Assembly: GCF_964355755.1 (NCBI RefSeq)
Contig: NC_092671.1
Location: 1,964,501-2,028,500 of the forward strand
DNA from: Antedon mediterranea
Taxonomy: Eukaryota; Echinodermata; Crinoidea; Comatulida; Antedonidae
DNA length: 64,000 nt
Direction of reading: 5' to 3'
Made by a program: the position numbers and the translations under genes. The notes under the pieces are model-generated. The model saw only the letters and a list, made by a program, of their open reading frames with translations. It was not told the origin of the DNA and did not search any database. Below, piece by piece: positions 5,565 through 55,100 of the stretch. Within the stretch, counting starts at the first letter, position 1; the number at the start of each line of letters is the position of its first letter.

Positions 5565-5731
5565 TTAAGCTCGGTCTACACTATCAAATTTTATGTGACA
5601 AAAAAATGTGATGTGCCTATATATGGACATAATGATGTCATATCACTACCAAATTTGGACATATCACTACCATATTTGGGCACATCACATTTTTTTTGTA
5701 AAACTAGTTTGATAGTGTAGACAGAGCTTTA
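5565..5731. mobile_element. TTAA-flanked MITE, family A
   Basis: Terminal inverted repeats are related to GCTCTGTCTACACTATCAAA, flanked by TTAA (5565-5568) and TTTA (5728-5731). The interior repeats 'gtgatgtgcc/ggcacatcac' and 'gacatatcactaccatatttggg'. There is no coding capacity. Other copies lie at 7483, 11244, 36560, 43521, 48386, 48491 and 55111. Confidence 0.8.
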
Positions 5732-28129: not shown

Positions 28130-31100
28130 CTAAAAAAAAATGAAGATATCATCACAAAGAAAACTTTACGGTGAAATTTTAGTTACATTGAAAATAAATT
28201 GATATGGATTGTGTCAGAATTACTCTACTTACTGCAGTAACTAAATATTTCTGCCGAAATAACATTTGATATTATTTCGTTTCAATGTAGAACCTAATAA
28301 GGCAGTTATTGCAACAAACGTTGTTTATATTTACCTTAAAAATTACTGCAGTAGAATGATTTCGAAAATAATTGTTTCATAATATCCAAATCAAATACGT
28401 AATAATTGTAGTTCTAATTCTTAAGAATTTTAGTTATAATTCTTGTTTTTTTTTAGATAAATAAATTAAATGAATTTTATTTATATTTCTATATAATTAT
28501 GTATAAATATTGGATTTCAAATAACACCATATTTTTTTATTTTATTTTATTCATTTCGGCAATAAACATAAAATAATAATTACAAAAAACATAAATATAT
28601 ATATATATATATGAAAAACAAGACACGAGGCCGAGGAAAGACAAAAGCATTAAACAAACGCTGTCACCGGTAAGGTGTGTCTCTCCAACACATAAATAAC
28701 AAATAACAAGAATATATACAAATATAGTAGACATATCATTTCATTTAAAAATTTAAAAAGTTTCTCTCCGAGATTTAAAATATAGCTTTAGAGATAATTT
28801 AAAATTAATAAAAGAACCATTAACAAAAATATCACGAATCTGATTGGGTATGGAATTCCAAGTTCTAGTGAATCTGGTCGGGATGCAAAATTTTGACATA
28901 TCATTACTGGAGCGAAGATGCTTGAAAGTGAGAGTATCATGACGATTATTAACTATGAGTAAATTATAAATAATAGATCTTTGATGATAAAGTAAAACAT
29001 TGCAAACAAATAGAACAGTATAACAATCTCTAATAGCGATTGTAGATGGGATATCAAGAGTGTCTAGTCTCCCCTCATATGACTGTTCCTGACGACGTTG
29101 ATGTAAGATCAACCGGGTGGCCCATCTCTGGATTTGCTCAATCATTTGAATTTGACATATGCGATAAGGGTACCACACCTCGCAACAGTACTTTATATGA
29201 GGGAGGACTAGACACTGGTATAATTTTAAAAGAACGGGTGTAGAACAACCACCAGCAATTGCTCTAACAAGACCCAGTGTTCTATTACACTTATTTACAA
29301 CCTCATGGACTTGTTTAGACCATGACAAATCATCGGATATGTACACACCAAGAATTTTCAGATGTTTAACATGTGCAATAACCTGATCGTTAAGTACATA
29401 GTCATTAGAAGATGGAGCTCTCCTTCTATCGATAGACAAGATGTTACATTTAGTAGGGTTTAAAATAAGTTTGTTTAAAATTGACCATTCAGAGATTTTG
29501 TACACATATATGTAAAAAAATGTAAATCAAATATGAAAATAACATAATGAACATTCTTCATAATGTATTTAAATGAATTTATAAATTAAAAATCAAAGAT
29601 TTCACTTTCAAATTACCTAAATTTATATATATTGTGTAAATATTTGACTTGATATAGAAGCACCTGTTTCATTTCACAGACAAAAAATCAATAAAAGGAA
29701 ATAGCAGACCTCCCAGAGATATTCAAACGAAACAGACAGAATCTTAATGGATGGACTGTTTATTTTAAATAATTAAAAATGAATTAGTCACAACATAATG
29801 GGTAATTTAATGTGTCTATATTTATGTAGATAATGAACAGTTAGCTAGTTACTTATTGATGCTTAAGATGGGGACAATGACAAGGTGTGTTTGGTGTTCT
29901 ATATTTAGAATTCTTTGTGTCTATATTTAGATAATGAGCAAAGTTTAATTAGTTACTTCTTGAAGCTTAAGTTGGGCACAATGAAAATGTGTGTTTGGTA
30001 TTCTATATTTAGAATTCTATGACACACCTTCAGAATGGGTAAGGCTAATTCTATTCATGAATCACTTGCATAATAATTCTATTTAGAACACTTCCTTAAA
30101 ATATACCAAAGTTTTTTGTGCTGGGAGATTCTGTGAAACACATTTAAATCTTTGAAGTATTTTTAGATTTTATTTGTTGGTTGCTAAGTAAGGTTTTACT
30201 ACAGATGTATAGTGACTGGCGCCTTGCTGCCAGTAAGGCCTGGTAGGTCTAATGAAGCATGTAACATACAATACAATAATCAATAATTATACAATTTACC
30301 TTTTGAATCTGGTTCTGCTAAATGTTCGTTTGTTTGTTTTGTCTTTTTTTCATATGCGTCATGGCTGGACACAATATCTACAATACAAAACATGTAATTA
30401 GCAGTTGCATTTTTCTAGGAAACATACCAGCGCAGAATGATTCTCAAATGTAGTTTAAATCATTATCAGTACCATTCTGATACTCAATGATTCATACTGG
30501 GTATGAATGCGTGCAGTAGTAAACATTGTTTAAAAAAACGTTTAAAAGCTTGTTTTCTCTGATAACATATATACACAAAATAATAAAGACAGTCACTAAC
30601 AGTATATATAATATTACAAACATTTTTTGAAGGATTGTTTCATTATTAAAAAATTTAACTAATGGTTGAATACATTGATTACAAATGGTATGATGGTAAA
30701 ACCTTAGTGTCCTCGCTATTACTATAATATATTCAACATATTAACAGTGGCAGATAAAGGGGAATGGCGGAAAAATGGTCAAATTGCAGTTATAGGATTC
30801 ATCTCATCACACATCCCCTGCCTCACTTGGATCTGCCATTGGGTGTGTATTGAACTATGACCTCCCACAAGTCTTCCCCTTTCCCACTTGGATCTGCGAA
30901 TGGATGTGTATCAAACTACAATCTCTCTTACCTTCGTCAACTAGTTCTTTCATTTCAGGAGGTACTGCCTGATCTGATTGAAAACTGAAAGATATTAAAT
31001 ATGAAACAATTATTTATCAGAAAGAACTTGCAAACATCCTAGATTTGCTAAAAGTTACACAAAAAAAAAAGGAAAAAAAAAGGAACTTTAGTTTGTAGGC

Positions 31101-34100
31101 AGAGTGGAAAAGTAAACAAACAATAGTTTTCGTTTCTATTTTATTGGTTGCTCTGTCTTTGTTGTATTGTATTAATGCTGTGGGGCGCGGTAGCATAGGA
31201 CTTCTGACCGCGACCTACGCTCGTCGCATTGCTTTGAGCATTAAGCGCTATACAAGATTAACATTATTATTTTATTACTAATATTAGAAACTATAAGACA
31301 TTTGAATTTATCAGTTAATGCGTGAAGTTTTAATTAAGCAAAGTGACAATAATTTCCAACACCACACTAACAACAGATACTTTGATTTGATATCTCATTG
31401 CATTGATCTTACTTACATGGTGATAGACTATGAATATAAAGAAAGTGAATTTCATATACAATTTTAATCTAAAATCATAGATTTATTAATTTTAAAAAAC
31501 AAAAACAATTTTACAAAATTACATTTTAAAAATCTTATATTTACACATTTTATTTAGCTTTATTATTTATTTTGCATTACTTATTATTATATATTTATTT
31601 TTAAAAGATTTATTTGAATATCTATCTTTGTTTTGGATTTCCCCCTCCCCCTCCCCCTTCTCTTTATGGCATTTTATTCACCTACTTATTTCATTTTTCA
31701 ACAGTCTTCATTCTTTGTCAAGCTTATTTTATTTTCAAATTTGTAATTTCTTTTTTCTTGTTATTCCTTTTTTGGACGTAAATAAATATGAATTTAAATT
31801 AATTAATAGGAAACTAGAAATTATTAATTAAATTTAGATATTAGAACCATTATTTTATGACTATTGTAACTCTTCTACACAAATCTCATATAAGCTTTAG
31901 CACATCCAGCTTTATTAAGATAGAATATCAATAGCTTTTACTATATTAATGATTAAGTGCCAATTCCTTATACTGTACTACATCTAGTTCAAACTCATTT
32001 AACCTTTTTGTAATAACCTGCTCTGGATGAGATGATTCTTTGTCAAATCTAAGCCAGGTTGAAATACAAAATACATTCTATTTGTTGTCTTGTTCAAGAT
32101 AAGTAAACAAATTGTTTTGTTAATGACTGATTATTGAAAATGTTTTTTTTAAATGCTAGAGATAAATTGTAGCATATCAATCATTAGCAATTCAAGTAAT
32201 AGAAGTTATTTAATGAATTTGCCAACAGCTAGGCCGCATTAATCTCTGAGAAATGTTATACATACACCATTACTTACAATATAAATTTAAAAACTTGCAG
32301 AAGACAAAGTTCATGTGTAAAAAAAATAGGATCCAGTCAGTCGTCAGGGGACAAATTTAAAAAAAAAAACCTTGTGGAAGCCAAGGTTCATGTGTAATAA
32401 AAAATTAGGATCCAGTTCCCAGTCAGAGGAAAAAAATGTCAAAAATAGATGTTCGCAAGTGCTCAAAGCAGTTAAAGCCCCATTCCCTACGTTTTTTAGA
32501 TCTAATTTAAGATCACAAACTATATTTAATGTAAAAATAATACTATATGGTCCTATTGCGATAACTTTTTTCGTCTTTAAACGGTTAAAAATGTGAAAAA
32601 TAAGTCGATTCTAATAATTATAGCGGCCTGCTATAAATCCCAAAATGCATTGCGCGCGGATTGATATTTTTGTTTTTCACCTGTAATTCGCCCACTTTTC
32701 GATCGATCGTGAGGCCAAAACAAATGGAAGACTCCTAACTTTTCAGCGAAAATACCGGGTTTTCCCCAATTTGTATCAACGGAGTCTGGCAAAAATAGAA
32801 AGACAATTAATGCAGCAACTATACAACGTCAGGCTAGGTATATAGCTCGCATACGATGTTCGTACGTTACCGATGTTTACCAGCTAGGCCTACAAAACTA
32901 AGCCTAGCTAGGCTAGGCCTAAGACCGTCCACGAGAGGTCGATCGCCGCGAGCTACTTAGGTAGTGCATTGTTTCTCACTTTTTATCATAATTTACCATA
33001 AAATGTACATTTAAGACAAGGAATGACATGGTTTAATGTTTTTAAAGTGATATATATGTATTATTTTCCAAAAAACGTCCAAAATTGCAGGGAAAGGGTC
33101 TTTAAGACAGCTGTAATCCTGCTCCATAATATTGGCAAGGGTTCGATTCTCGAGACCAAAACAGTAGACTCAGTGCACACAAAATATTTGTTTTACTTTA
33201 AAGTACCTAGTACATCTTTCAAGACAAGTAGGCAGTTACCCTGGTGTGTTGGCTCACTCAGCTCTTGGACAGATAAAAGAGTGCCTGAATTAGCAGTACT
33301 GACATGATGTGACCCTTAGATGAGAAATGTAGTTAGATAGTGTAACATCTAAGTCCACAACGCCATGAGCAATGATCGGTATGGTATGGCGCTATACAAA
33401 CGGACATTATCGTGTGTTAGGGTCCCCGGAGTAGAGTTGTTTAACAAAAGAGAAGAAAATTGATCATGTAATTATAATTAGATTAGATCAGAATTGATTA
33501 ATATTTACCTTGAAGTGATGCCCTCCGTTTGCTGCATCAACAGCTGCTGGGAAAGCTCAAAAGCTCGCAACAAACCTTCACTTATTCCTGATGAATCTAT
33601 AAATAGTAACATTAGCCATGTCATTAGAATATATAAATAGTAACATGAACATTAGGCGTGTCAATAGAATCTATAAATAGTAACATTAGTCATGTCATTA
33701 GAATCTATAAATAGTATCATGAACATTAGCTATGTCAATAGAATCTATAAATAGTAACATGAACATTAGAATCTATAAATAGTAACATGAACATTAGCCT
33801 TGTCAATAGAATCTATAAATAGTAACATGAACATTAGAATCTTATGAACATTAGCCATGTCAATAGAATCTATAAATAGTAACATTAGCCATGTCAATAG
33901 AATCTATAAATAGTAACATGAACATTAGCCATGTCATTAGAATCTATAAATAGTAACATGAACATTAGCCATGTCAATAGAATCTATAAATAGTAAACAT
34001 GAACATTAGCCATGTCAATAGAATCTATAAATAGTAACATGAACATTAGCCATGTCAATAGAATCTATAAATAGTAACATGAACATTAGCCATGTCAATA

Positions 34101-37100
34101 GAATCTATAAATAGTAACATGAACATTAGCCATGTCAATAGAATCTATAAATAGTAACATGAACGTTAGAATCTATAAATAGTAACATGAACATTAGCCT
34201 TGTCAATAGAATCTATAAATAGTAACATGAACATTAGAATCTATAAATAGTAACATGAACATTAGCCATGTCAATAGAATCTATAAATAGTAACATGAAC
34301 ATTAGCCGTGTCAATAGAATCTATAAATAGTAACATGAACGTTAGAATCTATAAATAGTAACATGAACATTAGCCTTGTCAATAGAATCTATAAATAGTA
34401 ACATGAACATTAGCCTTGTCAATAGAATCTATAAATAGTAACATGAACGTTAGAATCTATAAATAGTAACATGAACATTAGCCTTGTCAATAGAATCTAT
34501 AAATAGTAACATGAACATTAGCCGTGTCAATAGAATCTATAAATAGTAACATGAACATTAGCCATGTCAATAGAATCTATAATAGTAACATGAACATTAG
34601 AATCTATAAATAGTAACATGAACATTAGCCTTGTCAATAGAATCTATAAATAGTAACATGAACATTAGCCATGTCAATAGAATCTATAATAGTAACATGA
34701 ACATTAGAATCTATAAATAGTAACATGAACATTAGCCTTGTCAATAGAATCTATAAATAGTAACATGAACATTAGCCATGTCAATAGAATCTATAATAGT
34801 AACATGAACATTAGAATCTATAAATAGTAACATGAACATTAGCCATGTCAATAGAATCTATAATAGTAACATGAACATTAGAATCTATAAATAGAAACAT
34901 GAACATTAGCCATGTCAATAGAATCTATAATAGTAACATGAACGTTAGAATCTATAAATAGTAACATGAACATTAGCCTTGTCAATAGAATCTATAAATA
35001 GTAACATGAACATTAGCCGTGTCAATAGAATCTATAAATAGTAACATGAACATTAGCCATGTCAATAGAATCTATAAATAGTAACATGAACATTAGAATC
35101 TATAAATAGTAACATGAACATTAGCCTTGTCAATAGAATCTATAAATAGTAACATGAACATTAGCCTTGTCAATAGAATCTATAAATAGTAACATGAACA
35201 TTAGCCATGTCAATAGAATCTATAAATAGTAACATGAACATTAGAATCTATAAATAGTAACATGAACATTAGCCATGTCAATAGAATCTATAAATAGTAA
35301 CATGAACATTAGCCTTGTCAATAGAATCTATAAATAGTAACATGAACATTAGCCATGTCAATAGAATCTATAAATAGTAACATGAACATTAGAATCTATA
35401 AATAGTAACATGAACATTAGCCTTGTCAATAGAATCTATAAATAGTAAACATGAACATTAGCCATGTCAATAGAATCTATAAATAGTAACATGAACGTTA
35501 GAATCTATAAATAGTAACATGAACATTAGCCTTGTCAATAGAATCTATAAATAGTAACATGAACATTAGCCATGTCAATAGAATCTATAAATAGTAACAT
35601 GAACATTAGCCGTGTCAATAGAATCTATAAATAGTAACATGAACATTAGCCTTGTCAATAGAATCTATAATAGTAACATGAACATTAGCCATGTCAATAG
35701 AATCTATAAATAGTAACATGAACATTAGCCATGTCAATAGAATCTATAATAGTAACATGAACGTTAGAATCTATAAATAGTAACATGAACATTAGCCTTG
35801 TCAATAGAATCTATAAATAGTAACATGAACATTAGCCATGTCAATAGAATCTATAAATAGTAACATGAACATTAGCCATGTCAATAGAATCTATAAATAG
35901 TAACATGAACATTAGCCATGTCAATAGAATCTATAAATAGTAACATGAACATTAGCCATGTCAATAGAATCTATAAATAGTAACATGAACATTAGCCATG
36001 TCAATAGAATCTATAAATAGTAACATGAACATTAGCCTTGTCAATAGAATCTATAAATAGTAACATGAACATTAGCCTTGTCAATAGAATCTATAAATAG
36101 TAACATGAACATTAGCCTTGTCAATAGAATCTATAAATAGTAACATGAACATTAGCCTTGTCAATAGAATCTATAAATAGTAAACATGAACATTAGAATC
36201 TATAAATAGTAACATGAACATTAGCCTTGTCAATAGAATCTATAAATAGTAACATGAACATTAGCCGTGTCAATAGAATCTATAAATAGTAACATGAACA
36301 TTAGCCATGTCAATAGAATCTATAAATAGTAACATGAACATTAGCCATGTCAATAGAATCTATAAATAGTAACATGAACATTAGAATGTATTTAGGCCTT
36401 TTATTACTTTCATTAGTTACAAATCAACCAATAATGTGTGATAAATTGAATTGAAACATTGAAAAATAGATTTTTGTTGAATATACCATTTTGATGTTAC
36501 ATAATACTGTACAGTAGTTATAGGATAATAATCATAATAGGATCATAATTTAATGAACAAAAGCACATCTCATTTTTTTGTCACATAAAAGTTGATAGTG
36601 TAGACAGAGCTTTATGCCTACCTTCTCCTAGTCGCCTGCGAAAGAGCATAGATTCATCTTCATCATCAGTGTCATCAAGCCACGATGTCCGTTCTGGGGG
36701 TGCAAATTCTTTCAGAGACGCTTCTATCGCTTGTCGCAGTAAAATATCATCCTATCAAGATTACAGAATTAGAAAATTAAATTTATTATCAATTATTAAT
36801 TATGTTCATAGTTCGTTTTATTTGTCCTTACGGAAATTCATGTGACATACAATTGCTCAAAGTTAAAAGGTTAAAACAACAAAATTCAACGACTTAACAA
36901 CGGTTATTAAAATGTCTAACTGAGTACGGAATAAAAGAATTGAGGAAGTGTTTTGTTCTACAACGTGTAGCCCTAAACGCCTTCCAGATCTCAACCATTA
37001 AAAATCACTATCATCTGTTATTCTGCACGCCTTATTTACTAAACATTGAACATTCTTTAGGTCTGATTTTATAAAACTACTGAACCATATTAGACAACCA

Positions 37101-40100
37101 TAAATTAAGACACTTTCCATTACCGACTTATAAAATAGACCTAATATTGTGTTGTCAACATTTAAACCAAGTTTAATTTTCTTAAAAAGTACAATCTAGA
37201 TTTACCCTTACAATGTTCACCCCAATTAAGCTTGTTGTCGATTACCATTCCAAGATATTCATATTTGGACACAATATCAACTGCATTGATTTTAACCTAA
37301 ACATAATCCGGTTGATTAGAACTATTTTAGAAGTAAAAAATCATTTCTTTAGTTTTACATTCGTTAATAACTAAACGATTATCTACACATCCATGTAATA
37401 AATGAATTCACTGAGTTTTTTATACAATGTCTCATCATTCTTATCAATTAAACCTAATAAGACTGTATCGTCGGCGTACCTAAAAAAATAATTGTTTTGA
37501 TGAGTAGATTTACAATCATTCGTATACAAAACATATAATAGCGGCGAGAGAACACAACCTTGTGGGGATCCGATATTAGTTATCTGTTTATCCGAAAGAG
37601 TCCCCGATACTGACACACTTTGTACTCTATTACTTAAAAAGCTACTAATCCATGTTATAAGATAAGGCTCAGTGTTCTCCCCAGGCCTTTGAAGCGTCAC
37701 GGTACCGTGACGCTTGGGTTCTCTACCGTGACGCTTTACGGTCGGCCGTGACGCTTAAAACCTTATCCGTGACGCTTAAAAATATCAACCACAACAATCT
37801 AAAAATAGATTAACAGGCAGGTACGGTACTTTCTCTAGAGCTGAGGCGCGGCATGCATAAAGAGCCTAATGCATACGAGACACGTGACATGACCACTAGA
37901 CGAAAAACAAAAGACTGCGTAACAAAGTGTTAAACAACTGAGACTCGCTTTCACCGGCCGCCGCCGAGAGATGTAAACACGTGTTTTGTTACTGCCATGT
38001 CTCTCTTTCGATCTCTAGTATTTGGCTGTTGTCTAAAATGTAGTAACTTGTATATTGTAAATAAAGTAAATGATTGATTGTATTGTTTTTCTTCTAAAAA
38101 TGTTATGTGTATTAAAAATAAATATCGATGATATTATTATTTTCAATATCACACTGAATTAATCGACTCTATCGGTGGGATTTACTCTTTCGTCGGTAAC
38201 ATACGCACGTCATCAAATGATTTCTAGGCGCAATTCAATGCTAGCTGCTTTGATCGTATAATACATTCAAGAAGGCTACGATCGTTTTCCTATTTGCTAG
38301 TGCGCTAAAGTCTTATTTCACTTGCTTAAGGTACATTTAATGTACCTTAAGTTAAGTGTATTTGTACATCGGTGCTAGAATGTTTTAGGCCCTACTTCGT
38401 GAGAAAGTCGAGTGACAAGGGATGTCACATGGTATTGTGATATCAGTACTGCGATACTGTATGTCACATGGTGCTTTCACCGGCGGCCGCCGCCGAGAGA
38501 TGTAAGCACGTGTTTTGTTACTGCCATGTCTCTCTTTCGAATTGTTTTCCTATTTCCTAGTGCGCTATGAAGTCTTATTTCCGGGCAACTAGAGGTGTCT
38601 TACTAATGAGTAGGCCTAGTTTTATTTCATCGGGACTTGCCCCTGATGTTTGTATTTGAACGCAAAAAATGTTTTTTATCGCATATGTTTACCCGCCGGC
38701 GGAAAAAAAAAGTAGGCTACGATCGTTTTAATGTTTGCTAACGCGCTATGAGGTGTCGTTTCCGGCTAACTACAGTTGACTACTGATGAGAAGGCATATT
38801 TTTTTTTTCATATATCGCGTACAGTATGTTTACCTGCGGAAAAGTAGGCTCAATCGGGCTGTTTGCTAGCGCGCTATGAAGTGTCCTTTCCGGCCAACTA
38901 CAGAGTTGTCCTACTGATGAGTAGCATTTTTTTATTTCATCGGGGAATTCCCCTTGACGTTCGTAATGAACGCAAAAAATGTTTCTTATCGCGTATGTTT
39001 ACCGGCGGAAAAAGCAGGCTACGATCGTGCGGTTTGCTAGCGCGCTATGAAGTGTCTTTCCGGCCAACTACAGAGTTGTCCTACTCATGAGTAGGCCTAG
39101 TTTTATTTCATCGGGGAATTCCCCTTGACGTTCGTATTGAATGCAAAAACATTTTTTTATCGCGTATGTTTACTGGCGGAAAAAGTATGCTACGATGGTT
39201 TTACTGTTTGCTAGTGCGCTATAAAGTTTCGTTTCCGGCCAACTAGAGTTGTCCTACTGATGAGTAGGCTAATAGATTAGGCCTATTTTTTTCATTGGGG
39301 CTTCCCCCTGACGTTCGTAATTAACGCAAAAAAATGTTTCTTCGCGTATGTTTACCGGCGGAAAAAGTTGGCTACGATCGTTTTGTTGTTTGCTAGCGCG
39401 CTATAAGTGTTATTTCCGGCCAAACCAGAGGCGTCATTCAACATAAATGTTATGTGCGAGAGTACCATTTCCGGCCATCTAGGGTGTAAATTACCAAAAA
39501 TCGCTTCGCCACAGCCCCAACCATGGTGGGGCTGTGACTCAAGTACTTAGTGTCCCAATTCCCCCCCCCCCCCCACCCCCAGGGGGGGGGGGGGGGGGGC
39601 CAAGCGTGACGCTTGATGTGAATCCTGGGGAGAACACTGAGGCTTTACGTTCATATCACTAAGTTTTCTAATTAGAATGCTAGGTTGCAATGTATTAAAT
39701 GCAGAGGAAAAATCTACAAAAGTTGCTCTAACATAACAATTCAAATTATTAACATGACTCTGTATAAAATGGAAAAGTGTAAGAACAGCATCATCCACAC
39801 AAATTGCAAAGAGAAGCGGAGATAAAGGGGCAATAGTAATAATAATGTTTACTAATAATCTTTTCAAAGCACTTCATAACAATAGGGGTAAGTGCTACCG
39901 GACAAAAGTCATTCAATTGATTGATTGATTTTATTCGATATTCATACATAAAAGTTAAAATATACAATGTAAAAAGAATACCTGGATACCCCATTAAGTC
40001 GACAAAAAAATAAACTTATTTCCAATGGGGTCCAATCTGTAATGACTGAAAAGTGAGTGGTTGGGCCTAGTACAATTATCATTAAGTATGACTCAGTAAA

Positions 40101-43100
40101 AATGAAAAAAAAACAAAAAATACATACAAGACAAGATAACATCAAAAAAACAATTAAAAATAACTTAATTAAACTGAAATTCCAAGCTGTTCATTATTAA
40201 AATATTCTTTAAGTTTTATTTTGAAGGTTGCATTATTTTGTATTGATTTGAGTGAATTGGGGAGCCTGTTCCAGTCACGGATACCTAAGAAATAAAAAGT
40301 CGTATCATTAATGCCAGTAGCCTTAGGAGTGACAAAATTAAATGTTGTACCCCTGGTGAAATGGTTATGATGATCAGAAATTAACAAAAAGTTATCCTTA
40401 AGGAAAGAAGGCGTATTAAAGTTATAACAAATTTTGTGAACATAATTTAATCTTAAAAACTTATTTCTGAGGCTGACATTAAGAAACCCAAGACCGGAAA
40501 GCTCTTTGGCACCTATGTGAGACCTCGGACCAACATTTAAAATGAAACGTGCCATCTTGTTTTGGGCAGTTTGTAATTTATGTTTAAGATTCTTATTGAC
40601 ACCACCGCCGTACCATGCCGAGGCAGAATAGTCAAATGTACATTGTATTAAAGCAGTGCTTAATAGTTTACGACATTTTTTATTCAAGCATGAACTTTCC
40701 CTATGTAAAAACTTCAACCTTGACTTAACTTTACTGATAACACTAGTTGCAATAATATCACATGATACATATTGGTCTAAATCAATACCCAAATATTTAA
40801 CTTGCTTAGTACTTTTGATTCTACGGCCCATTAATTCTACAGAAAACTCTTTAACTTTGTTAAGCTTCGCTCTGCTACCAAAGATAATACTTTCGGTTTT
40901 GCCAACATGTAAAGATAATTTGTTTTTAGTTAACCAGTCCTGGCACTTAGCTAGAACAGTACTTAATTTATGAGCGATTTTGGTGGCTCTTGGGCTCTTT
41001 TAGGGACAAGGATAATTGTTCACGATTTCCAGCAGATAGGCACATGATGTAGATCCAGGGATTCTTGAAACAATAGGTTAAAGGGGACCGCTAATTGTTT
41101 AGCACACATACCAAGTACCCGGGCGCTAGCGTTATCAGGTCCGCCTGCTTTTCTTTTGTTCACTTTCCAAAATTGTTGGTAAACAGCCTGTATATCTATA
41201 TTAAAGACCCCTTCCCTGCAATTTTGGACGTTTTTTGGAAAATAATACATATATATCACTTTAAAAACATTAAACCATGTCATTCCTTGTCTTAAATGTA
41301 CGTTTTATGGTAAATTATGATAAAAAGTGAGAAACAATGCACTACCTAAGTAGCTCGCGGCGATCGACCTCTCGTGGACGGTCTTAGGCCTAGCCTAGCT
41401 AGGCTTAGTTTTGTAGGCCTAGCTGGTAAACATCGGTAACGTACGAACATCGTACGCTACTTATATACCTAGCCTGACGTTGTATAGTTGCTGCATTAAT
41501 TGTCTTTCTATTTTTGCCAGACTCCGTTGATACAAATTGGGGAAAACCCGGTATTTTCGCTGAAAAGTTAGGAGTCTTCCATTTGTTTTGGCCTCACGAT
41601 CGATCGAAAAGTGGGCGAATTACAGGTGAAAAACAAAAATATCCATCCGCGCGCAATGCATTTTGGGATTTATAGCGGGCCGCTATAATTATTAGAATCG
41701 ACTTATTTTTCACATTTTTAACCGTTTAAAGACGAAAAAAGTTATCGCAATAGGACCATATAGTATTATTTTTACATTAAATATAGTTTGTGATCTTAAA
41801 TTAGATCTAAAAAACGTAGGGAATGGGGCTTTAAACAATGCGGTCTTCTATATTACAATCAATTAACTCATTAAAGGACTGATTATCATTCCCAAATCGT
41901 GAATAAAACTTATTTAAATCATTGGCAAATTCATTAGGATGTTCACAAAAACCGAAATTATTATTACTAGAGGGTGAGCTCGCTTCGCTCGCTCCCCCTC
42001 TAGGAAGTGTAGACGATGGTTCTCGGAATGATAATGTTCTCCTTATACATTTTCTGTCGGTTACCATTATTGAAAATGCTTGACATTCGTAAAACTAAAC
42101 TACTTTGTTTCACAGTGTTTTAGATGATTAATAACATTTTAAAGTATAGTTTTTATTGTTTGGTAGGGCCCTTTGGGGAGGCGGAGGTCATTTGAGGGAG
42201 GTGCTTATTCGAGGGATATATGTTCAATTTTTTAGTTCTAATAATATGGTAACATTTATAATCAAATGAAATCCTCTCATAGATATGAAAAGTGTGTTTT
42301 AGATGATTAATAACATTTTAAAGTATAGTTTTTATTGTTTGGTAGGGCCCTTTGGGGAGGCGGAGGTCATTTGAGGGAGGTGCTTATTCTAGGGATATAT
42401 GTTAAATTTTTTAGTTCTAATAATATGGTAACATTTATAATCAAATGAAATCCTCTCATAGATATGAAAAGTGGTAAAAAAGAATAACAAATGCTTGGTA
42501 AATTGCAGATAACAGTGCGGTGAATTCTACTACAAATAGTATAATTGTGTTATTATAAATATGTGGATGGACGTTTATTAGATAGTTGGGTTGTGGGGGG
42601 GGGGGGGGGGGGTTATTATTCAAAGTGATGTTTTATTGGCGTTTATTCAAATGAATACCATCCTAATAATTATTAATACATTATTTAATTTAATCATCTT
42701 TTGAAACTAACTGCCGTGACAGAGTGGGCCCAAGAAAGAAGACATTACGGCTTGCAACATGGGCAGACATCTCGGTCCTAACGGGACACAGGAAGATAGC
42801 CTACAGTTATTCCTGCAAGCTTACTCAATAAAACTCAGCTATCGGGATTTCACTCGAAAAATGTCTTATCAAATCTCCCTATGTAATTTTATAATACTAT
42901 TCCCCACAATATATTCTGATTCTTTATGGCGTATATTTAATTTGATCTTTATTAATTTGCAGTATAATTCCTATTATTTAACTACTGTACCTTCACACAC
43001 GTGTGGTATGTTTTAAAATAAACAAAAAACTGAAATGGCTATGATTAATGGCCAATTTTTTTTTCGTCTTCCAAAGGGACACTGTATATTGATTGATGCA

Positions 43101-46100
43101 AAGTGCCTGTTTCCAGTCACCTTTAGGGTCAAATCTATTATTTTAACTGCTCCCTTGTGTATAAAAGAGAGAAAATATTTGAAACTAAGGTGAACTTATC
43201 TTAAACCCGGAAATTACTTTGACCGGGAAGAATTGAAATTGAGAGGAAAATCCAATGTTGAAATCATAAATGTTGTTAAAAAACTCTTTATAATATCTTC
43301 CTAAGATATAAATATGGAACAATAGCGTCGGCGTGCACACTAATGTTATCAAATCTACGTTTCGCGGTACATCTCGGATAGATAAGGTAGGTATCCAAGG
43401 CGGAGATTTGTAGAGAAGTTTTTGCATTGTGCTCGCCTATGTCAGAATTAACCATAATTTATATATAGATTACTAGTTTTTCTTAAATGCTATTGGATAA
43501 ATTCTTTGTTTAGTTCAAAACCTCTGTCTACACTATCAAACTTTATGTGACAAAAACTTGTGATGTGCCCATATATGGATGTGATGATGTCATATCACTA
43601 CCATATTTTGGCATATCACTACCATATTTGGGCATATCACACTTCTTTTGTCCAACTAATTTGATAGTATAGACAGAGCTTTTAGTATCTGTTATTAAAT
43701 GAACTCCATTTTAAAATGTAGGTTATTTCAAATTAGTGTTTCTGTTTAATCTGTTTTTGTATTAAGCTTATGCCTACGCATTGTATATAATTTACGAATA
43801 CGACAAAATAATCATTATCAAAGCCTGTAGTAAAATTCAAGGTTGAATTGGCTGAAATATATTAATTGAAAACAAGGTAAACAATGAAGATGATGATTAC
43901 TTCATTAAGCTCGATTTCAATTAAGTCATAAAGGTGACAGCAACAGTAACTAATAATTATATGGAGTATCAGTAAATAAAGAGTAATATTATAGCGGTTA
44001 AGACAGTGAAACCATACTTTATAGCCATAATATTGGCAAGGGTTCGAGGCTCACTCGCGCCATGGTTCTGGTGGTAGAATAAGCATTCTCGGATAAGGAC
44101 TACAGTATTGTCCAGTGTACACAAAATGGTTGTTTGCACTTTAAAGAACCTAGAACATCTTTTGAGATGAGTAGGGAGTTGCCACGTGTACTAGCTCACA
44201 CATTTACTGTCGTGGACACATGATAGAACGCTAAAATTAGCAGCATTGACAGGGGAGAAGCGTGCAGCAGCTAAGTCAGTACGTTGAAAAACCACACAAG
44301 TATGTTTATTCCTACAGCCTTAATAGCTACCAAGAGGCGTTCAGTTTTCACCACACGCCTCCACCATATCTCGTTAAATCTATTAATATTTTATATTAAT
44401 AATTCTAGCTATGGCATAATTAACAAATGGCATGACTTAACTTTGTATAAAAATCTTTAAAACAACTTTGTGTTTATCAATTATTAATGGTCAGTAATAA
44501 AAATCCTGGTCATTTAGATAACACTGTTGATTCTACTTTTTATGAAACATTTTGAAATATTATACCTCAACCCAGACTGGAATAATGCTATCTTTTGAAA
44601 AGTAGTTTTTAAGTAAGCAGGTCATAGGTCATTACATTGTACTTATACTGTTATGACTCCAACCTTAATGGACCACCTGTCTATTCAAAGGTATGTACTA
44701 ATGTTATGTGGGCTGTAATTGATTTGTCATTAATGTATATTATTATTATTATTATTATTATTACGACACCAATTAATTTGTCATTAATGTATATTATTAT
44801 GGGGTCACTAATTGGTTTGTCATAAAGGTATATTATTATTATTGGGGGGACTAATTAATTTGACATTAATGTATATATTATGGGGTCACTAATTGGTTTG
44901 TCATTAAAGTATATCATTATTATTGGGGGGACTAATTAATTTGACAGTAATGTATATATTATGGGGTCACTAATTAGTTTGTCATTAAGGTATATTACTA
45001 TTATGATGAGGGCTCTAATGGATTTTGCCATAATGTTTTTTTCTTTCTTCTGCTTTTTTTTGGCAAATTCTTAAAGTTGTCATGACTAAACAAAATGGTA
45101 ACAATCAACACAAATAGAATATCATGTAGATTCACAGGAAAGTGTCCCCTAAATAGCGAGGTATATGTGATTAAAACACAACTTTTACAAAATGGCTTGC
45201 AGATAATATGACTATTAATCATGCTTGCCTTCCAAACCCAGGGTTCAGGGTTCAATCCTGACCTAGTGCCAGTGACAGGGTTGTAACTGACTCTTTCAAC
45301 TCCACTCCCTAAGCCAAAATATAAGCTCTATCATGTGTCCACAACAGTAAATGTGTGAGCTAGTACACCAGGGTAACTCCTACTAGGTTCTTTAAAGCGC
45401 ACACAAGCAGTTTGTGTACACTGGAAAATTTCTGACTTAGTTGATACGCACAATATATAATAAACTAGTGTAATTGGTGAGTTGCTCACATTTGGATGCG
45501 TATTAAAAAAAAGCTTACTGGATGGATATTATTACTGGCATTAAAAAAATATAATGTTAAAATTTAACTGGAGAGATCGACACATCTGACATTTGAATTG
45601 GAGACAAGATTATGTAACACAAACAACAATTAGTGTGTACATTAAAAGACCTAATTAGTCAGACAATGAAAATGAGAAATCCATTAGGCAAAAATAAATG
45701 GAGTTGTCTCCTATGGCTGTTAAAGTGACTACAAGTCTAATTGACTGTGGCAAAAACAACCTGTAACTTATAATGGCAGCTCTATCATCAGTAGAAGGTT
45801 ACAGTAATTAATTATTAGAGAATAAAGAGCTCAATTAGTTGATTGAGTTTGTGTTGACGTACTAACAATAGAAATGATGACATCATCATGAATTCAGTTA
45901 GCGACCAATGGTGACCATTCACAAATTGCTATTATGTTTCTATACACTCCAAAGTTATTTTATAATTACATCAAGTCAAGTCCAATTATTAAAACCTTTT
46001 TAGCTTCCTTAACACATTGACTGCCAAGGCATTTTCCGTAATTTCTGTCCCAGTGCCAAGTCCCGTTTGAGATGATTATATTGAGTGTGAGGGCGCCATA

Positions 46101-49100
46101 TTCAATGCATGAGGGAATAAACACAAACAAACATATGACATTTATTTTTAGATTATCGTTTACGTACATCATTCATAAACTGCCATGCGATAATTCCTGT
46201 TCCAATCACCACTGCCAGCGATTCTACATACAATACAAAAGTGCTACGATTTTGACGTAGTATTACGTCTTGGCAAGTAGCGACACGCAATTTTTGACGT
46301 ATAAATACGCCGTGGCAGTGAACGTGTTAAAAATGCAATGTAAATTATTACCAACCCGAATTCTTACTAATTTAGTAAAAAACAAAAATACAATACTGTA
46401 GTTATCACATTTATTTCTGTTTCCAATAATGTCATGATATTTCTCTTAGTTTGTGAATTTATATTATTATTTGGTATATATTGTAAATAAATTGTATAGC
46501 TCCTAACATGATTTATAACACTACCTTTGTTGAAAACTAATTTACAAAATAAGTGTTAAAACCATTTACTTTTGAACGATCATTCAATAGTGTGTACTAT
46601 TGCATGCCATGTGACACAATCGTTCTATCAAATGACAGGAATTTATTATATAGTATGTTCTATAGCATAGTTTATAACATGATGCAGCAGAAAAAGGTCC
46701 ATAAACAGAGAAGGACACATTTGATATAAAATTAATAATAATTATGCTTTAGGATTATCAGCACAAAATGAATCAAGATCTTGAGCTGGTAATAATATAA
46801 TATTAATAACAACCATTATTTCAATTATGATATTGTGCAAAATAGGAGACAGATATGAGATTAAAAGGAAGCCTGGTGTTATTACGTCTCGCAATTTGAC
46901 TTCATACAACTAGCCAATGAAAGGGCACTCGCTACAAATTCATTAGTAGTAATGCAAGTCTAATTATTTCCATCAGCAAATTAAAACAGTGCTAAGTACG
47001 AGGTCATTTTAAAAACATGGAAAGATAAGAAGTTTTAGGAGTGAAACTCGACTCAAACACTCTTTCAATTACATACTCGACTCAAAATCTCTCTCTCTTA
47101 GACTGATTCTGTCACAAGTACATCCTAGACATCTCAGAATCAAACTTTAGGGCGAATCCAGGATTTTTTAAACAGAGGATTGCAAAACTAACATGTAATA
47201 TTAATAGTAAAAAATAGTTCATAATTTCATTTTAACTTAACTAATGAAGTCTATTGAATCTATTACAGAATAATTACCTCTTCATCAGTATCGTCCGAGT
47301 CTCTTCTTACTGGTTGTGTTCTTGGTGACGAGTCTGGGGGTAAGAAGCCCTTGCTGACTGCTGACAAAAACTCTCCTCGTTTACGTTGAACGATGACAGT
47401 GGTCATGATGACCTTGGGTCGAGGCGTGCAGAGGAACAACCTGGCAACCATCTGTGATAGTGTTTCACACGCTTGCTCTAATTCATCCTGCAACAGCAAA
47501 ATCATTCAATATGATTTTCAGTCTATTATCTTATATGGATGCAAAATATGGGGGCATATAAAAGGAAAAGAAATTGAAAATATCCATCTTAAGCATTGTA
47601 AATATACATTAAATGTCCAGCAGTCGTGTCCCAACGAGGCAGCAAGAAGTGAATTGGGCCATATTCAATTAAAGTATTACAGACATATTAGAATGATAAG
47701 TTACTGGATTAAAATATTAATGATGGAAACCACAAGACTACCAAAAATATGCCTTCTTCAACAAAAGTCCTGGGCCGAGAAGGGAAGCGACTGTTGGGCA
47801 CTAAGTTTAAATATATTCTTAACTATTACGGATTTAATTATATTTTTTATTTAAATTATATAAATAATAATTTCTTACACAATTTCAGCCAGAGGGTATA
47901 CGATACAGTTTTACAGAACGAAAGAGAAATTCTCCAACAAAACCCACGTTTGCGATTTTATAATTATTTTAAAGCTGATTATGTTACAGAAAACTATTTA
48001 CATAATTTAAATTTTAAGTTCAGAACACTTTTATCATTTTCGATTTCGTTTATTTTGTAATACTGGGGAAATTGAAGACAAATTTTTATTTAGCTGTTCT
48101 TTATACAACAACCTGAGACAGAAATCAAAATAAATATACCTATTTGAATTATGTATTTAGAAATAAAAGAGAATTAAGACTGTTTGCTATATACATTGAC
48201 AAAAGTTTTAACTTAAGGAATGTCCAAATCAAGAGAAATAATTTTATTTTAATGTTTTAGAAAATGCTTTAGTTTAAGAAACGACCGCCTAAATATTGAT
48301 TCATGTTATTATGTAATATAGGTCAAAGGTCAAAATTACGAATAAAGAAAGAAAGAAAGAAAGAAAAGTCATACACCTAACAGACTAAAGCTCTGTCTAA
48401 AACAAAAAGTGTGATGTGCCCAAATATGGTAGTGAAATGACATCATCATGTCCATATTATGGGCACATAAAATTTTGTTGTCACATAAAGTTAAGCTCTG
48501 TCTACACTATCAAACTTTATGTGATGTGCCCATATTTGGACCTGATCACATATGGTATCACTACCATATTTGATCATATCCTACCATATTTGGGCACACC
48601 ACATTTTTGTTGTCACATAAAGTTTGATATTGTAGACAGACCTTAAGACACACATACACACCTAATTGAGTTGAAACATAAAACATTACCTGCATAAATT
48701 CAAATATTTGTTTACTTCCATCCTTGTCTTCCAAGTAGTAGCCATATGCATATGAGTATTTCAAGATGTGTCTTGCTTTCAACAATTCAATTATTGCATC
48801 CTTGATGAAATCAGTATCAGAAGCTAAAAAAAGACAAAAAGCTACATAATTGCATGTATTTATTTGGGGCACTCTCTTTCTGTGAGCAATTGCATTTTTT
48901 AGTTTATCCAGGTAAGTATGCATAATTGTAATAGAAAGGAATAGTGTTTTCTTTCTGGCTGTTTTACTTTATCAATTTGATTTAGCTTTTTGCTTATTTT
49001 ATTTGTATCTCCATTGAGATTCAGCCACTGATACCCACAGCATTGTCATTTTTTCAGTGCTTATTTTATTTTGTATCTCTATTGAGATCCAGCCACTGAT

Positions 49101-52100
49101 ACCCACAGCATTGTCATTTTTTCAGTGCTTATTTTATTTTGTATCTCCATTTAGATCCATCCACTGATACCCACAGCATTGTCATTTTTTCAGTGCTTAT
49201 TTTATGTTTTATCTCCATTGAGATCCAACCACTGTATCATTTTTCAGTAATTTGAATTTATTATAATGAAAGATCAAATACATCACCATTTCTGAATTTC
49301 TATTTTAGAAAATAAGCCAGCAATAACATTGAATACTATTTGTAAATTTAATAAATTATAGTTAATAAGATTTGTAATTGTAATCATAGGATGTTTTCCA
49401 TTTAGAAGTTGGATCGCTTGTTATAATTACATCAGTGTATTTCATACATTAATGTTCTTTACCTAATGAAATAGAAACACAGTCCTTTGCAAAGATAAGA
49501 TTGAATCCTGTGTTGGTAAAGTCTTACATGATTACATTATTCAATTTCGTGAATGAGATTAAGCAAACTGGATTAAGTGATTATAATATCAAAATTTGAT
49601 GGGATTAAATTTGTGAAATAGAAAATGATGAATGATTGAGATTTAGAACATTATAATGAAAATGGAATATGGTTCAATACAAAATAATACACTGATTTTC
49701 CATACTGTATCTTAATTATGAACATTCCATGATACAGTGTCACATGTTTGTCCCAAGTTACAACTGTTTCATAGAAAATAGGTTAAATTTAAGAAAATGT
49801 CACCTGTGATACTGTATTAAGAAATTTGCATATGAACATTGATATACTATGACATTTCCCTAGATACACTGGGAGAATCTTGAAATACAACTTATCAACT
49901 GTTTTGAATAATACAGTAGAACCTCTATTAAGGGGACACCTTTAGAACCTAACAACGTCCCCTTGTTATAAGGTTCCTATAATAGGGTTTAGCTGTAGTG
50001 TTAAAACATTATTTCCCCTTGTTATAAGTGTTCCTATAATAGGGTTTAGCTGTAGTGTTAAAACATATTTCCCCTTGTTATAAGTGTTCCTATAATAGGG
50101 TTTAGCTGTAGTGTTAAAACATATTTCCCCTTGTTATAAGTGTTCCTATAATAGGGTTTAGCTGTAGTGTTAAAACATATTTCCCCTTGTTATAAGTGTT
50201 CCTATAATAGGGTTTAGCTGTAGTGTTAAAACATATTTCCCCTTGTTATAAGTGTTCCTATAATAGGGTTTAGCTGTAGTGTTAAAACATATTTCCCCTT
50301 GTTATAAGTGTTCCTATAATAGGGTTTAGCTGTAGTGTTAAAACATATTTCCCCCTGTTATAAGTGTTCCTATAATAGGGTTTTGCTGTAGTGTTAAAAC
50401 ATATTTCCCCTTGTTATAAGTGTTCCTATAATAGGGTTTAGCTGTAGTGTTAAAACATATTTCCCCTTGTTATAAGTGTTCCTATAATAGGGTTTAGCTG
50501 TAGTGTTAAAACATATTTCCCCTTGTTATAAGTGTTCATATAATAGGGTTTAGCTGTAGTGTTAAAACATATTTCCCCTTGTTATAAGTGTTCCTATAAT
50601 AGGGTTTAGTTGTAGTGTTAAAACATATTTCCCCTTGTTATAAGTGTTCCAATAATAGGGTTTAGCTGTAGTGTTAAAACATATTTCCCCTTGTTATAAG
50701 TGTTCCAATAATAGGGTTTAGCTGTAGTGTTAAAACATATTTCCCCTTGTTATAAGTGTTCATATAATAGGGTTTAGCTGTAGTGTTAAAACATATTTCC
50801 CCTTGTTATAAGTGTTCATATAATAGGGTTTTGCTGTAGTGTTAAAACATATTTCCCCTTGTTATAAGTGTTCATATAATAGGGTTTAGCTGTAGTGTTA
50901 AAACATATTTCCCCTTGTTATAAGTGTTCATATAATAGGGTTTAGCTGTAGTGTTAAAACATATTTCCCCTTGTTATAAGTGTTCCTATAATAGGGTTTA
51001 GCTGTAGTGTTAAAACATATTTCCCCTTGTTATAAGTGTTCCTATAATAGGGTTTAGCTGTAGTGTTAAAACATATTTCCCCTTGTTATAAGTGTTCCTA
51101 TAATAGGGTTTAGCTGTAGTGTTAAAACATATTTCCCCTTGTTATAAGTGTTCCTATAATAGGGTTTACCTGTAGTGTTAAAACATATTTCCCCTTGTTA
51201 TAAGTGTTCCTATAATAGGGTTTAGCTGTAGTGTTAAAACATATTTCCCCTTGTTATAAGTGTTCCTATAATAGGGTTTAGCTGTAGTGTTAAAACATAT
51301 TTCCCCTTGTTATAAGTGTTCCTATAATAGGGTTTAGCTGTAGTGTTAAAACATATTTCCCCTTGTTATAAGTGTTCCTATAATAGGGTTTAGCTGTAGT
51401 GTTAAAACATATTTCCCCTTGTTATAAGTGTTCCTATAATAGGGTTTAGCTGTAGTGTTAAAACATATGTCCCCTTGTTATAAGTGCTCCTATAATAGGG
51501 TTTAGCTGTGGTGTACATATTTCCCCTTGTTCATTTCACAGGAAAGTGTCCCCTTAAAAGGAGGTGTCTAAAGGTATGGTTTCTGCTGTAGTTAATTAAT
51601 ATTCATTTAATTTGAATAAATTTGCATAAAATTAACAGACAATAATACATACCAGCAGTACAGGCCTTTGTTCCCTCTAGAGCTTTCATCTTCATTGTGA
51701 CTCTTTTTTTCAACGGTTCTTCCAGTTTCAGACTATTTTCGTGATTCTTATACCGCGTATAGTAATGCAAAAAACGGTTCAGGCATATCATCTCTTGATT
51801 CTTCTTCTCAGCCTGAATGATATTAAATAATTTTGTAACAAAATTTTATCAAAAAAATCAAAATGTTTATATTTGTTGTTACTATGTAGGCCTAAAATAC
51901 ATTTTGAAAATCATTCAGGTTGGGTTAGACAAGACAGGGATGTAGTAAGGTATATTTAATAAAAATGGACCTGAAATGGATTTTCGATTTTTTTCATTTT
52001 AGAATGATGTTTTGGGGGCTATTAGGTGTTGCTAGAATGTATATTGTTACAAAATATAAATTCGCCCTTTTGGGGAAAGCCCCATTTGAAAATCAACAAA

Positions 52101-55100
52101 ATTCGCGGGTGACGTCACTTTGCGAATATATTCCTATCCCTCCAATGGACAATTTGCAGTTTTTTGGCTATAACTCTTGAAATATATGGAGTATTTTCTA
52201 AAAAATGCTTGTGCATTTGCAGAAACGTATTTAGAATTTTTTTAGATAACATTATTACCGTATAAACGGTTATTCATCGAGTAAATGACAATTAAAAATC
52301 TTCAAATCAACGTTTTTTTTCTGGCAATACCGAAGTTAGCCTGGCAACGTTGTCCGGGATACAGCGACGTGTGCAATGATGCGTATCCATATTTTCCGTT
52401 CGTGTATTTTGTATATCGTTCGTAATTTATACTGCTGAAATGTGTTAGTTTCTTTATTTTTTAGTTTAGCAGAATTAAATTAGTAATATCAGATGATAAT
52501 TTATTTGTCACGAATCAGGCAGTTTGAAAACAAATTTTATTCATATTTTACTTTGGCTTGACAATGTGCAGCAAGTTGTTGATATTGCTTTGGTCCTTGG
52601 ATGCACACTAAACGGAGCCTCGCATGTGGGTGGGTGGTGGATCGCGCGCTGGGGGCCTAGGCCTAGTAATGATTTGGGAGGTAGGCCTTCTAAATTCGGG
52701 TTTTAGAACAAAGTACATTTTAGGGACCTATATTTCAACAACATTAGATATTGAATAAATTAGTATTAGTGTCAACGCTTCGCGTATCTTTCCAGGCCGT
52801 CGATCATTCACTGACTATCGGGCGGCATACACGCTCTCGATATCGTCGTGTGTATATGTGACATCGTGAATATAGAGGCTCCTGACGGCCGTTGAAATAG
52901 AATATTGCAATGGCGTGAGTAATTTTCGCTAATTTACCAAGGTATCTTAAAATTTCGTTTTTCTCAAAATACTATACATTTTGTTTTTATTTGTATGGGC
53001 TTGTGTTAATTTGATACATTTAAATAACATGTGTGAATTTCTTGAAAATCGAAAGTCCATTTCAGGTCCATTTTAATTGTTGACCAAGCACCTTTAAATT
53101 GGTAGCACTCACAATATGTGGTGCGCACAAGAAACAAAACAAAACAGAAAAGAACATATTGAGGAAAAAAAGATATGAGATATGAATAACTAAACTATAA
53201 CTACTTTCTGTTATCGTGTTATATATCTGTTTTGAAATGAAAATTTAAAAAAATAAATAAAAACTATTTACAAGGAACAATACATTACTATAAATCATTG
53301 GGAGTACTTTAAAAGATCCATCACTTTATTCACATGAATCATACATATAAAAACAATGATTTAAAAATTGTTTGAAAAAGAAAAGTAACATTTCAAAATT
53401 GAAAATAAAATATAAAAGTATGAAATGAAACATGTGAAGGGACGTAAGCGAATAGCTTTAAGTGTACAGCTCATGATAATAGTAAAACATGTGAAGGGAC
53501 GTAAGCGAATACCTTTAAGTGTACAGCTCATGGTAATAGTAAAACATGTGAAGGGACGTAAGTGAATAGCTTTAAGTGTACAGCTCATGGTAATAGTAAC
53601 ATGTGAAGGGGCGTAAGCAAATAGCTTTAAGTGTACAGCTCATGGTAATAGTAAAACATGTGAAGGGACGTAAGTGAATAGCTTTAAGTGTACAGCTCAT
53701 GGTAATAGTAAAACATGTGAAGGGACGTAAGTGAATAGCTTTAAGTGTACAGCTCATGGTAATAGTAAAACATGTGAAGGGACGTAAGTGAATAGCTTTA
53801 AGTGTACAGCTCATCGTAATAGTAAAACATGTGAAGGGACGTAAGTGAATAGCTTTAAGTGTACAGCTCATGGTAATAGTAAAACATGTGAAGGGACGTA
53901 AGCAAATAGCTTTAAGTGCACAGCTCATGGTAATAGTAAAACATGTGAAGGGACGTAAGTGAATAGCTTTAAGTGTACAGCTCATGGTAATAGTAAAACA
54001 TGTGAAGGGACGTAAGTGAATAGCTTTAAGTGTACAGCTCATGGTAATAGTAAAACATGTGAAGGGACGTAAGTGAATAGCTTTAAGTGTACAGCTCATG
54101 GTAATAGTAAAACATGTGAAGGGACGTAAGTGAATAGCTTTAAGTGTACAGCTCATGGTAATAGTAAGAAACAATTATACTGATTGTCAATAGATATATA
54201 AACGATAAAAAGTTATTGAAAAAGAAATAATAATTATCACAATCATAGCATACATCAAATACAACCAGTAGATGATTTAGTGATGGGGTTTGCCGTAGTG
54301 TTAAAACATATGATCTTTAAAGTAGTGGGTGTCCGAATGTCATTGTTGGGTGACAATAATTTGAGATGTAACTTACATCTTCTCGATCCGTCTCCATTTT
54401 GCCGTGTACCTTCTGGACAGCTTCAAAGCGATTGCAGCGAAAATAACCACCAGTCTCTGAACTGTGCTTATTCCAAGGCTCCAAACAAACCCAGCAAAAG
54501 TCATTCTTGCACTGTTAACAGAAAAAAAGAATCAAAGAGTGAAAAATAGTAGAATTGACAGATTTGATTTATTTTGATACCATACACAGAAAATAGATGA
54601 AAACAAAAAGCGCAATCAATTCGGAAAAACATGGAGAGATGTAATTGTAAATAACTTAACCAGTTGGGGAGGGGTAAGGTTATGCAGGCTAGTTATTGAA
54701 AGATATTTTGAGGATTATTTCAATATTATACTACTGCAGTTAATGTAGTAACTACATATTGCTACAGGAATAACATACACAATTTTAGTTTGTTTTTGAT
54801 GCTAAGTTTATGAATGCAGTCATTGCAAGAAACAGTGTGTATGATACCCAGAAAAAGTTTTGGTAAATACTTGCATAAACAGGTTAAAGACCAAACAAAA
54901 AATGTAGTTACTGCAGCAACAGCAGTAAAATAATGTTGTCATGGTGCCTTACCTTAGTACATTTCATGTGATTGCAGCCTTCGTTCTTTTGTATTGGTGA
55001 TGTGCATTTTGGACAAGGTTTTGAGTTGGTTACAAGCCAGAGTAGGTTGGCCACCGATTCGGATTCCTGCGCTGTTCCACTTACTAATTTTATAAAAAGA

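Follow-up and report, generated by a model that had tools for sequence, protein, structure and literature searches.

We analysed a window of 64,000 nucleotides (nt) from the crinoid Antedon mediterranea (RefSeq assembly GCF_964355755.1, contig NC_092671.1, positions 1,964,501 to 2,028,500 of the forward strand) and found that one intron of a minus-strand gene, predicted to encode an E3 ligase, consists almost entirely of head-to-tail copies resembling its own 3′ end. The tandem array runs from 36387 to 33597 (window coordinates, given in the direction of the gene) and adjoins the exon that begins at 33596. It comprises 76 units, mainly of a 40-nt and a 28-nt type, and, with 2,791 nt, makes up 92% of the intron's length of 3,025 nt. 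From its anatomy, the surrounding reading frames and comparison with published cases, we consider it likely that the array is a minisatellite of the mirage type, derived from tandem duplication of the 3′ end of the intron, in which the last copy would be productive and the remaining copies would be cryptic acceptors of nearly neutral effect.

Anatomy and genomic confinement of the array

The anatomy of the array, its confinement to a single place and the reading frames around it are read directly from the sequence. Units were delimited at each ATTC that precedes TA or, at the exon, ATCAGG, so that the ATTC after each unit is given by construction. Unit lengths are 40 nt (51 units), 28 nt (11 units), 27 nt (6 units), 34 nt (3 units), 29 nt and 41 nt (2 units each) and 39 nt (1 unit); Tandem Repeats Finder calls the array at 33608–36384 with a period of 40 and 73.2 copies. 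The units fall into 18 distinct sequences arranged in irregular order, and by eye the 40-nt and 28-nt types differ by a 12-nt segment with short repeats at its flanks. On the gene strand, units carry CTAAY (Y, pyrimidine) and a T-rich stretch, and all but one (75/76) finish with an AG in front of ATTC, as at the junction 33597/33596. The sole exception is the penultimate unit (33670–33631), in which the acceptor AG is changed to AT. All 76 units have CTAAY 10–45 nt before their end. Elsewhere in the gene region there are 1514 AGs, counting the real acceptors, and 76 of these have CTAAY at that distance, as do 2 of the 12 other acceptors of the gene. The 34-nt terminal unit (33630–33597) holds the putative working branch site and the acceptor TTTATAG, with candidate branch sites at −16 and −28 of junction 33596. 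Both borders of the array carry ATTC, at the start (36387) and, at the end, as the exon's own ATTC at 33596. The original prediction had described an array of about 75 copies of a 3′ splice site, with the acceptor of the neighbouring exon as the minisatellite unit, and both statements are borne out by these counts.

We searched the 354-Mb genome with a 29-nt unit pattern, allowing ≤3 mismatches. The search returned 62 matches, all 62 inside the array, and none for the reversed control; counts of repeats from such pattern searches are lower bounds. In a separate search, in which 40 of 124 candidates were scored, the matches listed outside the array are confined to query positions 250–361, which belong to the intron following the exon, and do not include the unit. 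The unit is thus confined to one genomic place, and we rejected the idea that a dispersed repeat or transposon had inserted at the exon. We likewise rejected a role of the units as separate exons or recursive-splice points: each of the 147 GTs in the array has T as its next base and none has G before it, so that there is neither a donor-like GT nor an AG|GT, and the units cannot easily turn into separate exons. A resemblance to a tunicate spliced leader (ATTCTATT) was treated as chance; with ≤2 mismatches, the search gave 7 scattered matches compared to 9 for the reversed control, none of them exact.

Reading frame, site scores and RNA folding

We joined each candidate acceptor in silico to the upstream exon (36751–36622, minus strand, donor AAG|GTAGGC). 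Each of the 74 upstream AG acceptors (74/74) leads to an early stop, as does skipping of the exon 33596–33509, whereas junction 33596 keeps a frame of 525 codons open. The copies were previously proposed to be equivalent acceptors that might buffer splicing. Since all upstream AGs bring in-frame stops and 33596 does not, the copies are not interchangeable spares, and buffering is unsupported.

Acceptor strength was scored with a weight matrix built from 12 other sites of the host gene, picked by eye from reading frames and leaving out the exon ending at 54953, whose acceptor could not be settled; the resulting values are to be read as a rough scale. Leave-one-out scores of the 12 real acceptors range from −8.1 to 7.4. 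A typical array copy scores 3.6 and the terminal site at 33596 scores 0.9, compared to a mean of −6.7 for 1503 other AGs, 1.1% of which reach the array median. Most array copies look as acceptor-like as the real acceptors of the host gene.

Variation between units is concentrated beside the exon. The last 10 of the 76 units (33943–33597, minus strand) contain 7 of the 10 variant units that occur only once in the array, and the first 10 contain 1; none of 100,000 shuffles reached 7. Because these singletons cluster beside the exon, the exon-side end appears to be either old or shielded from homogenisation. Such a cluster would be produced equally by exclusion of array edges from homogenisation, as reported for amphioxus BflGb6 (PMC3087553), and by purifying selection on rearrangements that touch the working acceptor. 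Weak copies, defined by a score <2 or a lost AG, show a similar trend, with 5 of 10 lying within the last 8 of 75 (P 0.0007). This second cluster overlaps the singleton signal and its cut-offs were chosen post hoc, and it is suggestive only.

We further predicted the folding of the array RNA. Compared with 200 shuffled versions, a 161-nt piece has the better predicted fold (z −3.5), and local folding leaves the terminal AG unpaired more often than each of the 74 upstream AGs at all six window settings. At the smallest setting its openness is 0.70 compared to a median of 0.42; the values are 0.37 compared to a median of 0.017 at setting 150/100, and 0.17 compared to 0.13 for the best copy at setting 200/150. 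Our interpretation is that ATAG can pair with CTAT from a neighbouring 40-nt unit and that the exon offers no CTAT. In 300 simulated arrays with shuffled unit interiors the terminal copy is usually also the more open one, with a median ratio of 8.4 compared to 20.3 for a homogeneous array of the real unit; 17% of them match the real ratio, 23% hide their internal AGs to the same degree, and 13% do both. Because 13–23% of shuffled arrays equal it, the contrast is not special to the real unit, and we rejected RNA masking as a selected trait. The predicted advantage of the last copy may instead be common to tandem splice-site arrays in general and not an adaptation of this gene. Accessibility is no mark of real sites in the host gene either, since in 10 of the 12 other real acceptors the AG is less open than at 33596, the lowest value being 0.00.

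Host gene and neighbouring features

By its predicted domains, the host gene is an Ariadne-type RBR E3 ligase, and its domain order makes it a putative ANKIB1. On the minus strand, Pfam identifies exons with RING, IBR-type and Ariadne domains as well as a weak UIM; the RING, IBR and Ariadne matches (PF13923, 34.6 bits; PF01485, 35.6 bits; PF19422, 32.2 bits) all exceed their cut-offs and lie in three separate frames. The RING exon maps to 59299–59211 by Pfam and reading frame. An RBR-module exon at 54511–54377 matches IBR_1 below the cut-off, and its best solved relative is ARIH1. An ankyrin match (PF00023, E 0.0023, 18.6 bits compared to a cut-off of 21.1) is sub-threshold, was found in one of three frames scanned and lies ~9 kb past the window end. 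The assignment to the E3 ligases made originally is upheld by the Pfam domains and the ARIH1 relative. The exon beside the array had also been called UIM-like, which proved to be misplaced: the UIM-like helix, itself a weak match (PF02809, E 0.14, 12.5 bits compared to a cut-off of 21), sits in the preceding exon 36751–36622, and a Pfam search with exon 33596–33509 gave no match.

Exon 33596–33509 is 88 nt long, is entered in phase 1 and left in phase 2. It is followed, in phase and on the same strand, by exons 30984–30932 and 30377–30300 and by the last coding exon found, 28129–26901, which runs through the stop codon. Together with exon 36751–36622, these four exons form the 525-codon open frame, all assigned from their reading frames. 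No exons were identified from 47278 to 36751, so that phase 0 at 36751 is assigned from the open frame.

Repeats are also found elsewhere in the gene. Two more long minisatellites occupy other introns, at 49958–51531 (28 copies of 56 bp) and 53428–54167 (13 copies of 57 bp), and reach no identified exon. At 59895–59965 a 33-bp direct repeat within the coding exon 60072–59879 gives rise to a repeated peptide. A repeat of the TAATCAATAA type (59083–59202) begins ~9 nt beyond the end of the RING exon at 59211 and does not include the splice site. At 48991–49234, 3.6 copies of a 68-bp unit end in TTTTTTCAG on the plus strand, which is acceptor-like but lies on the strand opposite to the gene.

Judged by eye, a Ty3/gypsy-like pol frame occupies an upstream intron of the host gene at 61463–64000, and a further long frame beyond the window may be its gag. 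LINE-like reverse transcriptase fragments, likewise recognized by eye from the frame lists, lie in introns at 40172–40999, 37386–37754 and 28756–29526. The window also contains a nuclear-receptor DNA-binding exon (10045–10194), whose closest solved structure is that of the thyroid hormone receptor. A ferritin exon has matches to 212 solved sequences, which point to no particular phylum, and searches for the COX1, GFP and GH6 families gave no match, those for GFP and GH6 being run without a positive control. Near-identical 21-bp repeats, CATATCACTACCAAATTTGGA and CATATCACTACCATATTTGGG, at 5639–5688 and 43591–43640 are perhaps part of a dispersed mobile element. GC content is 32–35% across eight 8-kb blocks of the window.

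Origin, precedents and alternative explanations

The array is best filed with the mirages of amphioxus, as an unusually large acceptor-side member of an already described kind. Mirages are minisatellite-like tandem copies of intron/exon borders, acceptor side included, many of which carry splice signals; they are described in the globin genes BflGb6 and BflGb9 and in Adh3, as well as in TnC and PGBD5, all from cephalochordates (PMC3087553, PMC3902484). The BflGb6 unit combines the 3′ end of intron B12.2 with the 5′ part of exon 2 and is present as 6 or 3 units of 150–160 bp, the number differing between the two haplotypes; the edges of the cluster are left out of homogenisation, and the authors take reverse-transcription PCR and Adh3 data to suggest that regular splicing is undisturbed (PMC3087553). 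Adh3 mirage units are given as 10–72 bp. Like mirages, the crinoid array spans an intron/exon border, here minimally with 4 exon bases, and its copies carry splice signals (AG in 75/76 units, CTAAY in 76/76, an acceptor-like typical score). As in BflGb6, edge units appear to escape homogenisation, but here at the exon side only, and 76 units of 27–41 nt stand in place of few, longer units with more exon sequence.

Donor-side arrays provide a second comparison. The variable number tandem repeat in intron 18 of human ABCA7 has a 25-bp unit in ~12–427 copies and begins with the GT of the exon 18 donor; reported new splicing events are retention of a single unit, use of a cryptic acceptor in exon 18 and skipping of exon 19, and exon 19 skipping rises with array length, whereas frame-breaking single-unit retention does not (PMC5954066). 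Like that repeat, the array described here abuts a splice site exactly and carries its signal, a feature of ABCA7, but it lies on the acceptor side, whereas ABCA7 is a donor-side case with length effects measured in people. A minisatellite of human IFI6 (6-16) reportedly provides multiple donor splice sites; it resembles our array in offering many splice sites of one kind and differs in that these are donors. A repeated 5′ splice site of the ABCA7 or IFI6 type is absent here, none of the 147 GTs being donor-like. Competition of several acceptors for a single exon, as would occur here, is also a feature of NAGNAG and similar short tandem acceptors, but these usually number two and lie a few nucleotides apart. 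A minisatellite of C. elegans is tied to alternative splicing, and no repeated splice site is described in the accessible part of that report (PMC4039745). Among the matches listed by full-text literature searches, whose coverage leaves out most subscription papers, no acceptor-side array of comparable size was found. Compared with the known cases, the array is unusual in its size, in decoys that are all unproductive, in its decayed exon-side units and in a predicted pairing that hides internal AGs more than the last one.

For the origin of the array, the choice of acceptor, RNA decay and neutrality, we argue from sequence. A founding slip would probably have run between two ATTC words 28–34 nt apart across the intron end, and because one of them forms the first 4 exon bases, each unit would end in an acceptor AG. 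The founding duplication would have ended at exon position +4, where the border now lies, since tandem growth adds units within existing borders. Amplification would then have lengthened the intron to 3,025 nt from about 260 nt, an ancestral length we infer from the share of the intron taken by the array. In the pre-mRNA, the productive acceptor would be the last copy, adjoining the exon, probably favoured through exon definition, as the copy nearest to the downstream 5′ splice site, and perhaps also by an AG less paired with neighbouring copies. Upstream copies would act as cryptic acceptors, and their use, or skipping of the exon, would yield a premature stop and nonsense-mediated decay. The net effect would be near neutral, perhaps with a small length-dependent loss of productive mRNA.

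Several observations weigh against this reading. (i) With only 4 nt, the exon sequence included in the units is shorter than in BflGb6, and the chance of some array end falling ≤4 nt from an acceptor is ~15%, by arithmetic for the 13 acceptors within 64 kb and 40 separate arrays, a number assumed in view of 55 overlapping Tandem Repeats Finder rows. (ii) The terminal site scores below a typical upstream copy, so that a strongest-site rule would pick the wrong copy, and its score is equalled or exceeded by 4.9% of the 1503 other AGs. (iii) Under first-come splicing, the first copy, which ends an intron of 262 nt, would have an advantage, being transcribed ~2.8 kb before the last.

The true acceptor could be CAG|GAATAAG, 9 nt downstream of the junction, with its AG at 33589–33588 and an exon start at 33587 on the minus strand, in which case all 75 array AGs would be decoys and the exon would be marked by an AG outside the array. 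Judged by length, this site preserves the frame (9 nt, 3 codons); it offers CAG and not TAG, has an AG predicted to be accessible (0.54) and lies with −1.5 inside the leave-one-out range of real sites. It scores below 33596, however, few pyrimidines precede it, and TATAG at 33596 is the first AG past both candidate branch sites; we consider the downstream acceptor unlikely. Array copies may alternatively have grown from an unrelated intronic minisatellite whose edge was fused to the exon by a deletion, one AG then becoming the acceptor. The other long minisatellites of the host introns lend some substance to this idea, yet it calls for an additional deletion reaching the exon edge without disturbing the phase, and the ATTC overlap at both borders is better explained by direct duplication, which makes it improbable in our view. 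That the copy number is an assembly artefact seems very improbable: near-identical tandem units tend to collapse or expand and a single assembly was available, but 18 unit sequences in irregular order are hardly invented by simple misassembly, and the contigs are chromosome-sized (18 in 354 Mb, the host contig measuring 40.9 Mb).

Two further proposals assign the array a function. It could be a length-dependent dial, in which a set rate of upstream acceptor use yields stop-containing RNA and so adjusts the E3-ligase dose from one allele or tissue to another. Consistent with this, none of the 74 upstream AGs would keep the frame and most resemble real acceptors in score, and expansion of the ABCA7 array accompanies more exon skipping and lower expression (PMC5954066). 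Against it stand the amphioxus mirages, reported without splicing disturbance (PMC3087553, PMC3902484), and the use of the extra ABCA7 donor copy, which is unchanged with array length (PMC5954066); we regard a dial as quite unlikely. We are equally doubtful of a model in which acceptor amplification is self-silencing, such that pairing between neighbouring copies would hide every internal AG, the edge copy, having no neighbour downstream, would stay exposed beside a guard zone of decayed copies, and array length would serve as a dial for E3-ligase mRNA. If general, self-silencing would account for mirage arrays leaving splicing undisturbed.

Tandem duplication of the intron end thus remains the origin that we favour, and it suggests a route by which an intron may grow about tenfold through duplication of its own end. 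The array is real and striking, and on the sequence its value is that of a natural experiment on 3′ splice-site choice, any putative function aside. Pitting 33596 against 74 near-identical, frame-breaking upstream acceptors, the gene would provide a natural test that sets apart models based on scanning, exon definition, transcription order and RNA structure.

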